A stretch of 14,973 nt of DNA from Candidatus Bathyarchaeota archaeon (GTDB lineage Archaea > Thermoproteota > Bathyarchaeia > TCS64), in the NCBI GenBank assembly GCA_030601645.1, contig JAUWBQ010000020.1, positions 1 through 14,973 of the forward strand. Direction: 5' to 3'. The notes under the pieces were generated by a model that was not told where the DNA came from, did not search any database, and worked only from the letters and a program-made list of their open reading frames with translations. The position numbers were made by a program, and so were the translations under genes. Shown one piece after another: positions 847 to 10,384 of the stretch (positions within the stretch are counted from its first letter, which is position 1; every line of letters starts with the position of its first letter).

Positions 847-1422
847 CTAGTTGGGCATCGCGAGGAGCTCTGACTTGCGGACCCCGACGTGCCTGAGGGC
901 GGTGATCTTCCTGGCCTCGTTGTAGACGTCGGACGCCAGCTTCCCCAGGACCATCTCGTGGACTATCTGGCCGAACTCCAGGGTCTGGGCCTTCTCATCC
1001 ACCACCGCCTTCATGATGTCCCGGATCGCCTTCTCCTGGGAGGTCTTGATCCTGGTGGCGGTGAGGGCGGTGACCACGATCTTCAGCTTGTAGCCGTCGG
1101 TGGTGGTGATCCTGAAGAAGCCGTCCACCTTGGTGCTCCTCCTTCTGACGAGGCTGCGCAGGTAGTCCCTGAGGTACTCGTGGCCCTTGAAGACGGTCTG
1201 GGCCGTGTTCTCATCGATCCCCGTGACCTGGAAGTACATCTTCAGGTACTCCTGGGAGAAGTCGCCGGTGATCTGGGCGAGGGTCGTGGCGTAGACGCGG
1301 CCCATGATTTTCGATGGGTCCTCGGCGGGGGTCTCTCCCACCTTGGTCTCGCCGAAGTACCGGGGAAGGTAGATGTCGTACCAGTCCTTCCTCCGCCACT
1401 TGTCCCTGATGGCCCTAGACAA
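847..1422 (-). CDS. rps3ae: Small-subunit ribosomal protein S3Ae (eS1)
   Basis: Archaeal/eukaryotic 40S-type ribosomal protein eS1 (S3Ae), a component of the small-subunit platform. The frame reads DKWRRKDWYDIYLPRYFGE near the N-terminus, the typical family opening, followed by VGETPAEDP and GRVYATTLAQITGDFSQ. An upstream in-frame ATG exists at 1473 and would add 17 residues unlike the family. I prefer the TTG at 1422 for three reasons: the family normally begins only a few residues before the DKW block; a GGAGAG ribosome binding site lies at 1434-1439; and a TATA box directly abuts the 1473 ATG, so the predicted transcript would begin after that ATG. The result is 191 residues, close to the usual ~200. 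It sits downstream of pcc1 in the common archaeal neighbourhood but is separated by a long gap holding an RNA candidate. Identity is certain; the start is probable. Confidence 0.95.
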   Translation of the reverse strand: MSRAIRDKWRRKDWYDIYLPRYFGETKVGETPAEDPSKIMGRVYATTLAQITGDFSQEYLKMYFQVTGIDENTAQTVFKGHEYLRDYLRSLVRRRSTKVDGFFRITTTDGYKLKIVVTALTATRIKTSQEKAIRDIMKAVVDEKAQTLEFGQIVHEMVLGKLASDVYNEARKITALRHVGVRKSELLAMPN

Positions 1423-1473
1423 GCTACCAATTACTCTCCTTGACTCGATGTCCAAGGAAGGGCGCCCGCTCAT

Positions 1474-1538: not shown

Positions 1539-1706
1539 ATGATAAAATCACTACCGTTCATCGTCGTGTTTTTGCCTTCCCGCGACAACAAAACATTAGT
1601 CTCAAAAATTAGGGACATTCTTAACAAGCATGAGGCAAAAAACGCATCGAAAACAAGCATTACCAATATTCTTTTGGATCTTCCACGAAACATAAGCGTC
1701 ATATAA
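1539..1706 (+). CDS. Possible 55-residue small protein, unrecognised
   Basis: An AT-rich plus-strand frame beginning MIKSLPFIVVFLPSRDN, with a protein-like mix of hydrophobic and basic residues, ending at a TAA embedded in the TATA box of the downstream RNA candidate. No convincing ribosome binding site: a GGGGGGAG stretch lies about 18 bases upstream, which is too far. The gap is otherwise non-coding. I do not recognise it. It may be a chance frame or the relic of a larger gene. A longer minus-strand frame over the same bases looks no better. Confidence 0.2.
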   Translation: MIKSLPFIVVFLPSRDNKTLVSKIRDILNKHEAKNASKTSITNILLDLPRNISVI

Positions 1707-1709
1707 AAT
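1702..1709 (+). promoter_or_regulatory. TATA box of the structured RNA candidate
   Basis: TATAAAAT on the plus strand, 18 bases upstream of the first base of the terminal helix of the RNA candidate. The expected transcription start (about 25 bases downstream of the box centre) falls at roughly 1727-1732, at that helix. No coding frame follows, consistent with a non-coding transcript. Confidence 0.55.
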
Positions 1710-1726: not shown

Positions 1727-1947
1727 TGTAGCACGGATAAAAACGCATCCGGAAAAGCATGAGGCGGAAACCTCCGAAAGGAGGAGGAAGCGCATGAACG
1801 GACTCGGGTTAGCCTGGGACCTACGGATGGGTGCAAAGGCGAGGCGTTCGCGGCAGGGAGAACCGAGGTACACGTGCTCCAGGTCGCAGTCGACAGACGG
1901 ATGCCGCACTCGGGGACGCTCGAGAGAGACCGGAGCTCCGTGCTACA
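1727..1947 (+). ncRNA. Candidate structured non-coding RNA with closed terminal helix
   Basis: A GC-rich block between pcc1 and rps3ae with no credible coding frame. Its ends are perfectly complementary: TGTAGCACGGA at 1727-1737 pairs with TCCGTGCTACA at 1937-1947 (11 bp). Just inside, TCCGG (1748-1752) can pair with CCGGA (1930-1934). A GNRA-capped hairpin, CCTCC-GAAA-GGAGG, lies at about 1771-1784. CTCGG (1803-1807) can pair with CCGAG (1863-1867). A TATA box lies at the right distance upstream, and a T-rich stretch (TTCTTTT, 1974-1980) follows. The end-to-end helix resembles the layout of RNase P or SRP RNA. However, I find neither the RNase P conserved core (GAGGAAAGUCC, ACAGAA..GGCUUA) nor the SRP helix 8 motif, so I leave it unassigned. 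Confidence 0.55.
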
Positions 1948-1983
1948 CCTTCTAACAATTAAACTTTGGTAGCTTCTTTTCGA

Positions 1984-2253
1984 TCATTCGACGACATTGA
2001 AGATCGCCCGCTCCGCCGCCTGCACACACGAGAGCAGGTCGTCGACGGTCGCGATCAGGCTCTTCAATCCACCTGTGCACGAGACCGTCAATCGCAGCCG
2101 GGGTCCCACTGTCCGAGCCTCCACGGTCACCCCCGGCGGGGCTCGGATGTTGTCTGGGGAGACCGCCTCCATGATGGAACGGGCTGCATCGGCGTCCCCG
2201 TATAGGATGCTTATCGTTGCGGATGCCTCAGTCTCCGAGCTGCTCCCCGACAA
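1984..2253 (-). CDS. pcc1: KEOPS complex subunit Pcc1
   Basis: A small dimerising subunit of KEOPS, the complex that makes N6-threonylcarbamoyladenosine at position 37 of ANN-decoding tRNAs. The 89-residue product shows the Pcc1 pattern: an opening strand (ATISILYGD), a helix with AARSIMEAVSPDN, two further strands (VTVEARTVG, LRLTVSCTG) and a closing helix (LIATVDDLLSCVQAAERAI). It starts at a TTG preceded by GGTGGA six bases upstream; no other start is possible because an in-frame TAG lies two codons before. The first 26 bases overlap the end of the DHH nuclease gene, indicating coupled translation. Other KEOPS genes (kae1, bud32) lie upstream on the same strand. Confidence 0.88.
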   Translation of the reverse strand: MSGSSSETEASATISILYGDADAARSIMEAVSPDNIRAPPGVTVEARTVGPRLRLTVSCTGGLKSLIATVDDLLSCVQAAERAIFNVVE

Positions 2254-7101: not shown

Positions 7102-8118
7102 TCATGCGGTCTTGATGAAGTCTCTGCGGGATCCGGCTCCTCCGACCAAGACCCGGTGATGGTCTGCGACTCCCTGCACCAGTTCGAGGGCTCCCCTGAA
7201 CTTGATCCTTTCCCCTGGTTCGAACATGTCGCAGTACAGCCCCTCGTAGGAGACCACATCGGTGATCTCGGCGTCCGTGTCTGTCTCCACGTCGCCCAGC
7301 GCGTATCTTGCCGGCATGTAGATCGATTCGGGGCTGTCCTCGATGCGGGCCTCTCCTTCGATCTCTCCAAGGCGGAGGTAGGTGTTGTCCCCGTAGGACT
7401 CCGTTATCTCTCCGTCGGTCCTGGTGGGGTGGATGGAGAAGTAGGTGCCCTCGAACACGCCGTAGTTCCATCTCCTCTCCGCGAAGCCCATTAGATCTTC
7501 GTACGTCAGGGGGAGCCTCCTCGACCTGCTCCGGCTCCACTCTTCTTTCTTCTCGGCGTCGAAGGGCTTGATGTCTTCTCCTCTCCCGAGGATGAGGGTC
7601 TGCTTCAGCCTCCTAGAGGCGGTCTGGCCGTATACGGTGAGGTCGATGTCGGAGAACTCGGGGTTATGGCTCCGGGTAAGAATGGAACCCGTGACGCCGA
7701 TGTCCCCCGTTTCTATCCCTGAGGGCTCCGTGAGGCGGGCCACGAGGTCCGCGAGTCTCTGTTCCAGGTCGTCTCTTGGGCCTCCGGTTAGGATGGATCG
7801 GAGCCTCTCCCTGGGGCGGTGGTAGGTTCTTACGCTGTCGCAGGGAACCGATGAGACGGTGATGTTCCTCACCGGGCAGGAGTGGAGGTACCGGGGGTAT
7901 CGTTCTCTGAGGAGGCTGTAGGTGATCTCCACCTGGGAGACGTGGTAGTATGGCAGGGTCCTGGCGTATCTCGTTCTCCCCCGGCTCCATCTGCCCTCCG
8001 GGTCGGGGAGGTATTTGAGGTAAGCAGTGTACCTGTCCGGGGGGTGCAGGTACCCCACGACGCAGAATATGAGCCCCTCATGGGTCTCGACGAAGTCCCG
8101 GTCCTTGGGTTTCTCCAT
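7102..8118 (-). CDS. Predicted archaeal nucleotidyltransferase, paralogue A
   Basis: A 338-residue protein with a conserved N-terminal domain (GYLHPPDRYTAYLKYLPD, residues 22-39) and a polymerase-beta-type nucleotidyltransferase domain: GS at 144-145 and SDIDLTVYG with D157/D159. The C-terminal part is shared with paralogue B (RWNYGVFEGTYFS, ESIYMPARY, DVVSYEGLYCDM). I believe this is the archaeal family filed as COG1665, of unknown substrate, but cannot confirm the number. It diverges from the TGS GTPase gene across a gap of about 100 bases. The minus-strand TTATC at 8149-8154 may be its TATA element, giving a nearly leaderless transcript. No ribosome binding site is visible. Confidence 0.85.
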   Translation of the reverse strand: MEKPKDRDFVETHEGLIFCVVGYLHPPDRYTAYLKYLPDPEGRWSRGRTRYARTLPYYHVSQVEITYSLLRERYPRYLHSCPVRNITVSSVPCDSVRTYHRPRERLRSILTGGPRDDLEQRLADLVARLTEPSGIETGDIGVTGSILTRSHNPEFSDIDLTVYGQTASRRLKQTLILGRGEDIKPFDAEKKEEWSRSRSRRLPLTYEDLMGFAERRWNYGVFEGTYFSIHPTRTDGEITESYGDNTYLRLGEIEGEARIEDSPESIYMPARYALGDVETDTDAEITDVVSYEGLYCDMFEPGERIKFRGALELVQGVADHHRVLVGGAGSRRDFIKTA

Positions 8119-8222: not shown

Positions 8223-9389
8223 ATGGTCACAAACCTGCCGCAGGAGGCGAAGGCGAAGTGGAACGAGGTCACCCAGACCCGGAACCCTGAGGAGCGCCTC
8301 CGCCTGATGGGGGAGTTCATGTCTCTGGTGCCGAAGCATAAGGGGACGGACAGGATGTGTGCCCAGGTCAAGCGGCAGATGGCCCAGCTCAGGCAGGAGA
8401 TCGAGGATAAGAAGAAGGCGGCGAAGCGCAGGAGCGCTCCCTCCTACTTCATCGAGAAGGCTGGGGCGGCCCAGGTGGCGGTGGTAGGGCTCACGAACGC
8501 GGGGCGGAGCAGCCTGTTGAGGGCGGTGACCAACTCTCAGGTGGAGGTGGCGCCGTGGCCTTTCGCGACTCGGGTTCCGACGCCTGGGATGCTGCCGTAC
8601 AAAGATATCCAGTTCCAGCTGGTGGAGGCGCCGCCGGTCGTGGAGGGGTCGTCGGTGGGGAGGGCGGACGGCTTCCAGGTGCTGAGCCTGGCCCGAAACG
8701 CGGACGGGATCATCGTCGTGGTCGATCTGGCAGATGATCCGGGGGGGAGCCTGCTGGCGGTGCTCCGGGAGCTGGAGGCTTCTAGGATACTGACGGTGGA
8801 GCCCGAGGGGGAGGTGGAGCTCACCCGGAGGGGGCACGGCTCGGACATCCAGTTCATCTGGGACGGGACCTTGGAGGAGTGCACACCGGACGATGTGATC
8901 AAGCTCCTCAGGGAGTACAAGATAAGGTCGGCTCTGTTAAGGATACGGGGGAAGGTGACACTGAACGTGGTGGAGGACGCGATCTTCGGAAACGCCGTCT
9001 ACAGGCCCACGCTGGTGGTGGCCAACAAGCTGGACCTTGCCGTGGAGGGGGCTGTGGAGAGCGTACGGGCGTCTGCTGGGGGGCTCGAGGTGCTGGTGTT
9101 GTCCATGGAGGGGTGTGAAGGGCTCCGGGAGCTCCTGGGGGCGAGGCTCTTCGAGCTTCTGGGGGTAGTCCGGGTCTACACGAAGCAGCCGGGGAAGAAG
9201 GCGGCGGTGGAGCCCATCGTGGCGAGGCAGGGGCTGACGGTCGGGGATCTCGCGAAGACGATCCACAGCGACTTCTACAAGCGGTTCAAGTATGCGAAGG
9301 TCTGGGGGCCCAGTGCGAAGTTCGAGAGCGAGAGGGTGGGCCTCGACCACGTTCTGGCCGACGGGGATGTAGTGCAGCTCCACGCCTAG
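8223..9389 (+). CDS. TGS-domain GTPase (DRG/OBG-related, HSR1-like) with degenerate P-loop
   Basis: A 388-residue member of the archaeal/bacterial TGS GTPase group related to DRG and OBG, thought to bind ribosomes. The N-terminal helical region includes the typical NPEERL and VPKHKGTD (36-43). The G domain follows: G1 is GLTNAGRSS (89-97), with Arg95 where Lys is expected; the threonine region is WPFATRVPTPGMLPY; G3 is VEAPP (134-138), where relatives have VDTPP; G4 NKLD (268-271) is intact. A TGS domain occupies about 315-388 (VYTKQPG to the end). The start at 8223 has GGGAG six bases upstream and matches the family N-terminus; the frame itself stays open from 8157. Loss of the P-loop Lys predicts weakened nucleotide binding or hydrolysis. 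Its stop shares a CTAG with that of paralogue B. Confidence 0.9.
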   Translation: MVTNLPQEAKAKWNEVTQTRNPEERLRLMGEFMSLVPKHKGTDRMCAQVKRQMAQLRQEIEDKKKAAKRRSAPSYFIEKAGAAQVAVVGLTNAGRSSLLRAVTNSQVEVAPWPFATRVPTPGMLPYKDIQFQLVEAPPVVEGSSVGRADGFQVLSLARNADGIIVVVDLADDPGGSLLAVLRELEASRILTVEPEGEVELTRRGHGSDIQFIWDGTLEECTPDDVIKLLREYKIRSALLRIRGKVTLNVVEDAIFGNAVYRPTLVVANKLDLAVEGAVESVRASAGGLEVLVLSMEGCEGLRELLGARLFELLGVVRVYTKQPGKKAAVEPIVARQGLTVGDLAKTIHSDFYKRFKYAKVWGPSAKFESERVGLDHVLADGDVVQLHA

Positions 9390-10384
9390 GGTGTCCAGTG
9401 GAGGTATTCGCCGGGCTGGGCGGCTCCGACCACGACTCTGAGCCATCCTTTCCCTGGTTCCTCGACCTCTTCCAGCACGCCCCGGGCGCGGATTCCCTCT
9501 CCTTCGGCCGCCACGTCTCTGTACATCCCGATCATGGAGACTACCTCTTTGACATCGTCGAGGTCTCTGTCTCCACCGATCTCGCGGCATCCATCCACCT
9601 CGTAGACGGCCGGCCTGAAGACGGACTCCCGGGCGGAGGCGCAGCGGCACTCGACCTCGACGGGGCCCAGGGGGCGATAGGTCCTGGGTCGGGTGTGTAT
9701 CTCCGAGTACAGCCTGGTGGCGTTCACCACGAAGTCCTCGTCCTGGTAAACCCCTCGGTTGAGCCTCTTCGCGTCGATCCTGTCTCCTCTTTTCAGGGTG
9801 AGGGCTCCTTTGCTCTCCAGTTGGGTGAGGGCGGCTTTCGCCTTCCTGAAGCTGGAGGCGCCGTACACGGCGAGGTCTATGTCGCTCCCCTCGTGGTGGG
9901 TGCCGAGGTTGATGGAGCCGTGGACCCCGAGGTGCGCGTGGGATATCCCTGCCGTTCTGGAGAGGAGGTCCGTGAGGGCTAGGGCTTTCTCCTCGAGGGG
10001 GTCTGAGGCTCCCCTCCTCTTGAGGCGCATGAGCTGCCTGGAAGGGCGGTGCACCCTGGCGATGAGCCTCCGGGGGATGGTGATCATCCACCTGTCCAAC
10101 TGCTCTGAGTGGATCGCATATTCACGGTAGTGATTTCTGAATGCCTCCACCAGCCTGGGGTAGCCTTGGGGGCTGTAGAGCTCCGTGGGCCTGAGGAGGG
10201 TGGTGCCCTGCATCTGCCAGGTGACGGGGAGCCACTGGAGGTCGAAGTTGGGTGCGTGGTCCTCGGGGACGTACTTGAGGAATCCGTGGTATCTGTCTCG
10301 TGGGTGTTCGTATCCGAATACGTAGAACACGAAGCCGTGGGTTGTGACGACGGCGTCTCCGTCCCTGAGGTTGTGGTGGGCCAT
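9386..10384 (-). CDS. Predicted archaeal nucleotidyltransferase, paralogue B
   Basis: A 332-residue paralogue of the 7102-8118 gene. Shared landmarks: GYEHPRDRYHGFLKYVP (24-40), HRPSRQL (112-118), the nucleotidyltransferase core GSINLGTHHEGSDIDLAVYG (G156/S157, D168/D170) and the C-terminal ESVFRPAVYEVDG and VVSMIGMYRDV. It keeps more of the standard core spacing than paralogue A, so it may be the more conventional enzyme. The ATG at 10384 has AAGGAAAG a few bases upstream. It faces the TGS GTPase tail to tail with a 4-base overlap. Both active-site carboxylates are present; the substrate is unknown. Confidence 0.85.
   Translation of the reverse strand: MAHHNLRDGDAVVTTHGFVFYVFGYEHPRDRYHGFLKYVPEDHAPNFDLQWLPVTWQMQGTTLLRPTELYSPQGYPRLVEAFRNHYREYAIHSEQLDRWMITIPRRLIARVHRPSRQLMRLKRRGASDPLEEKALALTDLLSRTAGISHAHLGVHGSINLGTHHEGSDIDLAVYGASSFRKAKAALTQLESKGALTLKRGDRIDAKRLNRGVYQDEDFVVNATRLYSEIHTRPRTYRPLGPVEVECRCASARESVFRPAVYEVDGCREIGGDRDLDDVKEVVSMIGMYRDVAAEGEGIRARGVLEEVEEPGKGWLRVVVGAAQPGEYLHWTP

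Follow-up and report, generated by a model that had tools for sequence, protein, structure and literature searches.

A candidate noncoding RNA gene with a promoter-like module of its own in one lineage of Bathyarchaeia

In the 14,973-nucleotide stretch of Bathyarchaeota DNA analysed here (hereafter, the window), the plus strand from position 1727 to 1947 is, on the comparative evidence, a structured RNA gene. Comparison of homologous sequences establishes a conserved fold that is unaccompanied by a shared reading frame and, before the gene at two unrelated loci, a promoter-like module at fixed spacing. We consider it likely that these sequences represent a stand-alone noncoding RNA gene with its own promoter, which belongs to a family undescribed in the sources searched, is confined to one lineage of Bathyarchaeia, acts in trans and originated at a second locus, that of a PAC2 gene.

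The RNA gene and its conserved fold

The RNA gene lies between rps3ae (847-1473, minus strand) and pcc1 (1984-2253, minus strand), as the earlier note on this DNA had placed it, divergent from the former and convergent to the latter, with RecJ-like and S15 genes (S15 being named from gene context) beyond these neighbours. Two sets of homologs are used below, namely, 13 rps3ae-side copies (from 12 genomes and the window) and 24 copies, in which these 13 are joined by 11 copies from the PAC2 locus. The features of the gene and its promoter are as follows.

1599-1638, plus strand: distal promoter element, GTCTCA-N7-GRGACATTCTTAAC-N4-ATGAGKCAA, beginning 128 bases upstream of the RNA
1680-1696, plus strand: proximal promoter element, by-eye consensus TTYCNTGYAACARAAG, here CTTCCACGAAACATAAG
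1700-1708, plus strand: TATA-like box CATATAAAA
1727-1947, plus strand: structured RNA gene (rps3ae-side copy), from P1 to P1, delineated by covariance models R1 and R2, 12 relatives, fold z of -4.78 and covariation counts
1727-1737, plus strand: helix P1, 5' strand, pairing with 1937-1947; compensatory pair types at positions 3, 7, 8 and 9 across the 24 copies
1743-1753, plus strand: helices P2 and P3, 5' strands, pairing with 1823-1832; 8 of 9 pairs change on both sides
1757-1797, plus strand: stem P4 with a GAAA-capped hairpin (1771-1784); two helices, with 88% and 96% of cells paired
1803-1818, plus strand: hairpin P5, CUCGGG-UUAG-CCUGGG, with the core GGGU-NN-GCC found in 23 of 24 copies at the two loci
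1823-1832, plus strand: helices P3 and P2, 3' strands, from the structure alignment
1833-1936, plus strand: second domain, helices P6-P9, variable and different in PAC2-side copies
1909-1924, plus strand: hairpin P9 with a GGGACGC loop region, from the structure alignment
1937-1947, plus strand: helix P1, 3' strand, from complementarity, the structure alignment and the 24-copy comparison
1948-1953, plus strand: 3' tail CCTTCT, retained in many rps3ae-side copies and possibly the 3' end or a terminator

The T-rich stretch that had been described after the gene turned out to be weak and not conserved; only the short CUUCU-like tail is kept, in many copies. With respect to the neighboring genes, the true start of rps3ae is probably some 50 bases inside the listed reading frame (many homologs are 191 amino acids long), and the upstream start is immediately preceded by a conserved TATA-like site. 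Elsewhere in the window, two long minus-strand reading frames (7102-8118 and 9386-10384) contain similar motifs (DIDLTVYG / DIDLAVYG); the first of these has no Pfam match.

The plus strand of the block folds at -96 kcal/mol (z = -4.78), with none of 200 shuffled sequences as stable, and the opposite strand has a z of -2.05, with 4 of 200 shuffles as stable. The two ends, which had been reported as complementary over 11 bp, indeed pair at 11 of 11 bases, and the CCTCC-GAAA-GGAGG hairpin noticed at the same time is present and caps stem P4. In the consensus structure, the 11-bp helix P1 encloses a first domain, in which P2 and P3 surround P4 with its tetraloop and P5, and a second domain composed of P6-P9. 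A natural variant of 192 bases (L061:1501-1692) has lost most of the second domain and keeps P1-P5.

Two other pairings proposed in the earlier note gave way on comparison. The inner helix TCCGG/CCGGA (1748-1752/1930-1934) occurs in the minimum-energy fold of the window sequence alone but is not a conserved pairing; relatives pair the place of TCCGG with bases near 1823-1827, forming helix P3 (by eye, ACAUGAGA/UCUCAUGU in L026 and UUAUAG/CUAUAA in L019). The long-range pairing CTCGG/CCGAG (1803-1807/1863-1867) has a probability of 0 in the window-only ensemble, where CTCGGG pairs with 1909-1914, and is absent from the consensus, too. Comparison favours the local hairpin CTCGGG/CCTGGG (P5), which rests on that comparison given that its probability in the window-only ensemble is 0.002. 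The window-only minimum-energy structure as a whole was rejected, with none of its 72 pairs significant and 8 compensatory events compared to 1-2 in slid controls.

P1 and P5 covary across both loci. Over the 24 copies, at least 8 of the 11 positions of P1 pair, and the core of P5 is missing only from G254, so that the hairpin is kept in 10 of the 11 PAC2-side copies along with the terminal helix. The third pair of P5, counted from the loop, is G-U in 22 of 23 copies; the fourth fails in 3 of 23, and pairs 5-8 covary.

The main covariation count was made on a structure-fitted alignment of 13 sequences with 63 base pairs, and the structure and most of the counts come from the same or fitted alignments: 36 of the 63 pairs change on both sides (3-12 in slid controls), and 93.9% of the cells pair (32-43% in slid controls). 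Of five measures, four exceeded every one of 500 shuffles; the number of further pair types was the weak one (65 vs 61.2, with 46 of the 500 reaching the observed value). When substitutions were mapped onto a tree, 24 compensatory double events were counted vs 0-3 in slid controls; newly broken pairs, 37 in number, do not separate from the controls (33-53). A raw p below 0.05 was obtained for 21 of the 63 pairs vs 3.15 expected, and 3 of the 63 were significant in a structure-restricted test. A MAFFT alignment of 9 sequences, from which the structure was itself predicted, showed double changes in 19 of 63 pairs. Thus, the covariation that the earlier note had suggested looking for was found in part: compensatory changes exceed the controls, but an all-pairs test (home-made and R-scape-like, not R-scape) detected no significant pair inside the structure, probably, because the 12 sequences are too few. 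On the fitted alignment, this test returned one column pair at E 0.05, located outside the structure, and on the MAFFT alignment, none.

Cells inside the structure include 65 G-U and 18 A-C combinations, an excess that favours the plus strand. Individual copies fold on the RNA strand at z from -1.74 to -10.3 (24 copies), and the opposite strand scores better in three of them (G003, G248 and G255). Given the fold z, the G-U counts and the side on which the promoter lies, an RNA on the opposite strand was rejected.

The 13 rps3ae-side copies share no frame that stays open across the block, so the earlier claim that nothing codes here holds as far as shared frames are concerned, but the window itself does contain one minus-strand frame open across the block (ORF 1424-1909), which has no Pfam match. 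The plus-strand ORF just upstream of the RNA (1440-1706) has no Pfam match either. In the absence of Pfam matches and of a frame shared by the 13 homologs, protein coding was rejected.

Assignment to a known RNA family was rejected as well. The Rfam models that had been proposed for comparison (RNase P, SRP, snoRNA) were run and do not match the RNA: no Rfam 15 family does so at gathering scores in a search of the whole window, and extending the search of 1440-2010 to E 10 yielded only two chance hits (E 1.2 and 4.5), both outside the RNA and neither to RNase P. The homologs at both loci match no Rfam family, either up to E 0.5 or at gathering scores. In particular, the models of archaeal RNase P RNA (RF00373) and archaeal SRP RNA (RF01857) match neither the window RNA nor its homologs, curated C/D or H/ACA guide RNA families in Rfam do not match, and ARAGORN reports no tRNA or tmRNA gene in the window or in 11 relative loci. 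By eye, no RUGAUGA/CUGA pair of guide RNA boxes stands out; the 3' ACA of the RNA falls inside P1 and reads CUACG in some PAC2-side copies. Among seven carrier genomes, a separate RNase P RNA gene scores over the cut-off in five (G001, G004, G005, G006 and G007; none over the cut-off was found in G002 and G003), and a separate SRP RNA, in three (G003, G006 and G007), with one below the cut-off in G001 and none found in G002, G004 and G005. The earlier view that this is not RNase P RNA, SRP RNA or a tRNA thus stands, no test having filed it there, and of the two options left at that time, a new RNA or a strongly diverged known one, the evidence favours the new RNA. A survey of the literature on Bathyarchaeia noncoding RNA, archaeal structured RNAs and RNA near rps3ae, with subscription journals mostly outside its reach, turned up no description of it. 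As a separate observation, the 1.5-Mb chromosome of G002 (the record of L002) yields no RNase P or SRP RNA at the Rfam cut-off, although such RNAs occur in relatives; they may be diverged in this genome.

Phyletic distribution, promoter module and the second locus

An Rps3ae alignment scanned against genome contigs identified 27 loci, all labelled Bathyarchaeota except for one labelled 'uncultured archaeon'. The block matches by DNA in 8 of these, at 69-77% identity (over only 94 bases in L026), and in all 8, it is flanked by pcc1 and rps3ae, both of them on the other strand. Two covariance models, R1, built from 9 sequences, and R2, built from 12 (rps3ae-side copies only), each find the RNA in 12 of 256 genomes examined from the class, at E 7e-32 or better, so that the conservation in relatives that the earlier note had proposed to examine is borne out. 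Each carrier genome has one copy except for G006, which has two. The same 12 genomes match among 41 relatives of G242, and a phylum-wide sample of 398 genomes yielded two known carriers plus one marginal match (E 0.005), which we took as chance for a sample of this size. The searches over more than 40 genomes used strict filters (5-8 candidates per genome were scored) and may therefore have passed over weak members; R2 indeed missed most PAC2-side copies in these searches. Seventeen rps3ae loci without the RNA gave no model match better than E 5.9, and the L020 gap, searched without filters, none better than E 0.38. Among viral contigs, 56 stretches match a P1 pattern; the best R2 match, truncated where the stretch ends, scored 19.4 bits (E 0.003) and by eye reads as coding DNA, and three weaker R2 matches (E 0.07-0.9) were rejected as well. 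The RNA is found here only in one lineage of Bathyarchaeia, and on an S3Ae tree of 29 rows, it requires at least two gains or losses.

The RNA is divergent from rps3ae in 13 of 13 rps3ae-side copies; the other neighbor is pcc1 in 10 of the 13 (in G239, identified by eye) and an Fe-ADH gene in three close relatives. An inverted rps3ae fragment lies between the RNA and rps3ae in G007. In L026 (2437-3576), an inverted partial rps3ae directly precedes the intact gene, with shared upstream DNA, which could be an assembly artefact or a real palindrome.

Upstream of the RNA, a module common to both loci consists of a distal element near -129, a proximal element near -41 and a TATA box near -25. With the two element patterns (regular expressions) written after seeing the data, the distal element was found at -128 to -130 in 19 of the 24 copies, across the two loci, compared to a mean of 0.18 and a maximum of 2 of 24 in shuffled upstream DNA, and the proximal core, at -41 to -43 in 22 of the 24, compared to a shuffled mean of 0.08 and a maximum of 1. 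The distal element is missing or degenerate in L026, L019, L022 and L063. The plus-strand TATA box of the earlier note was recovered as CATATAAAA, 19-27 bases before the helix, with a TATA-like stretch in the same place in relatives by eye; likewise by eye, AACRNAA followed by a TATA-like stretch, at a constant distance from P1, is seen upstream of 14 copies. Because the distal element also precedes the second copy of G006, at another locus, it belongs with the RNA gene rather than with rps3ae. Direct repeats (AAGCATGAGGC, AAAAACGCATC) are common to the region of the distal element (1626-1648) and the 5' part of the RNA (1739-1770).

By eye, the promoter was not seen before 6 RNase P and 5 SRP RNA genes, so a general promoter of stable RNAs was rejected. 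The distal pattern, with one mismatch allowed, gave 67 hits in 12 genomes vs 31 in the control; 11 of these are the two known loci, and the remaining 56, not read individually, might include a wider regulon. The proximal pattern gave 22 hits in 16 genomes vs 5 in the control, 14 of them at the two loci and the other 8 in what reads as coding or unrelated sequence. Class-wide, it gave 68 hits in 60 of 256 genomes (21 in the control): 20 were read, with 7 at the PAC2/HTH locus and 13 elsewhere, 12 were already known or read, and 36 are unread.

In G006, the second copy is flanked on one side by a PAC2 gene and on the other by an ORF with an HTH (GcrA/Myb-like, below Pfam cut-offs) and a zinc ribbon. 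This PAC2/HTH locus was recognised via the distal-element pattern and a PAC2 protein search, and other genomes carry the same promoter there. P1 is present in 11 PAC2-side copies (G006, G244-G250, G254, G255 and G256), in part by choice, as the copies were picked by the promoter pattern together with a P1-like motif (G254, through its HTH gene). Their RNAs are 141 to 259 bases long. R2 recognises the G006 copy (E 9e-28) and matches 6 of the other 10 (E 2e-6, 5e-4, 1.5e-3, 0.03, 0.06 and 0.35), missing G244, G245, G248 and G250. One genome, G006, thus has recognisable copies at both loci. In G002, G003, G005, G007 and G237, the promoter is retained at the PAC2 locus, and P1 and the family signature are lost; R2 finds nothing beyond short fragments in these five loci, although four of them fold better than shuffles (z of +1.55, -3.12, -2.16, -3.60 and -3.94, respectively). 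These diverged loci, a remnant in G251 and a contig-end copy in G239 are outside the 24-copy counts. In G240-G242, no promoter was seen at the PAC2 locus by eye.

Possible function and alternative explanations

The RNA might be no more than an mRNA leader at the PAC2 locus. One alternative explanation treats it as a leader that acts in cis (as an attenuator or in the manner of a riboswitch) on the HTH/zinc-ribbon gene there, with the rps3ae-side copy a by-product of duplication. A same-strand gene does follow the RNA at this locus: in the copies read, the RNA ends shortly before the HTH start codon, with no clear second TATA between them by eye. Furthermore, HTH matches at E < 1e-11, found in 23 of 40 genomes (with weak matches only in 2 more), are confined to the lineage (23 of 32 lineage genomes and 0 of 8 others). 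Against this, no same-strand gene was recognised after the RNA in 13 of 13 rps3ae-side copies, the next recognised gene being convergent (pcc1 or Fe-ADH), and yet this is the better conserved copy; in G234 and G236, the HTH gene is present, but the space in front of it is, by eye, too small for the RNA; and the HTH gene was not found in G001, G004 and G238, all with the rps3ae-side RNA, although G004 and G238 may be incomplete. In G001, a chromosome record, neither the HTH gene nor a close PAC2 orthologue (best identity 25%) was found, and because the RNA persists in it, the RNA is unlikely to be only a leader. On balance, we regard the leader explanation as rather unlikely. Still less probable is a role in regulating or titrating S3Ae, as an rRNA mimic or through a shared divergent promoter, which would account for the place of the RNA beside rps3ae. 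The orientation relative to rps3ae is invariant even where pcc1 is replaced by the Fe-ADH gene, and in L026 an inverted rps3ae fragment lies between; however, that replacement amounts to a single event among three closely related genomes, by eye rps3ae possesses a separate TATA-like site, and the PAC2-side copies have the same RNA and promoter away from rps3ae. A leader of the S3Ae gene proper was rejected because the RNA is on the opposite strand, divergent from rps3ae and outside its leader.

That a known RNA, such as RNase P RNA, SRP RNA or a guide RNA, has diverged here beyond recognition by Rfam would fit the size and the closing helix, which are in the range of such RNAs, but sits poorly with the separate RNase P and SRP RNA genes of the carriers and with the lack of Rfam hits at either locus, and appears highly improbable. 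We give hardly any credence to the notion that the block is an element acting at the DNA level (a replication, attachment or regulatory site) rather than an RNA: the distal element is, by eye, partly palindromic, like a DNA-binding site, but the compensatory changes, the prevalence of G-U over A-C cells and the presence of promoter elements at one end only all speak against it.

Under the preferred explanation, that of a stand-alone RNA gene, RNA polymerase would start near P1, and the transcript of about 220 bases would fold up as a stable particle. Hairpin P5, with its GGGU-NN-GCC core and the nearly invariant G-U pair, would be recognised by a partner (most likely, a protein and, less likely, another RNA); P5 is accordingly predicted to be the natural recognition site. 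The RNA probably acts in trans, given the lack of any recognised gene that the rps3ae-side copy could lead and the survival of the RNA in genomes where no HTH gene was found. A DNA-binding regulator bound to the distal element might control the level of the RNA. Of the two loci, PAC2/HTH, where the RNA directly precedes the HTH/zinc-ribbon ORF, probably holds the older copy; the rps3ae-side copy would then be a duplicate of the whole module, promoter and RNA, that took over in the lineage of the window, with the older copy subsequently diverging or being lost. A bolder proposal, possible but doubtful, is that the module exemplifies a dedicated class of archaeal RNA-gene promoters with a specific activator, that it is mobile together with the RNA, and that the RNA is the core of a lineage-specific ribonucleoprotein.

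Comparison with known RNAs and promoters

To our knowledge, few noncoding RNA families have been described from Bathyarchaeia, a very large group of uncultured archaea, and none came up in the literature survey. We read the RNA described here as a new, lineage-restricted family with its own promoter. The family offers a consensus fold, a conserved hairpin usable as bait, mostly single-copy loci and an elaborate archaeal promoter. Moreover, a whole RNA gene module, promoter and RNA, is documented at two loci, with one copy diverging or lost, so that the promoter and the RNA can be studied apart.

Archaeal RNase P RNA (RF00373) is a stable structured RNA of 200-300 bases, the two ends of which pair. 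The present RNA is similar in its paired ends but has no RF00373 match, and most of the carriers examined have a separate RNase P RNA gene. The ends of archaeal SRP RNA (RF01857) also pair; again, the RNA lacks a match to this family, and some carriers have an SRP RNA elsewhere. In eukaryotic promoters of the snRNA/7SK type, a distal element, a proximal element and a TATA box stand at fixed distances before a noncoding RNA. The layout of the module described here is alike, whereas the sequences, the distances and the polymerase differ, so the likeness is offered as an analogy only. Finally, archaeal S15 ribosomal leaders are located before rpsO in Halobacteria and Methanomicrobia (PMC7247131). 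The RNA gene described here likewise lies near the rpsO-recJ-rps3ae gene group, but, unlike those leaders, it is predicted to be transcribed away from rps3ae and convergently to pcc1.
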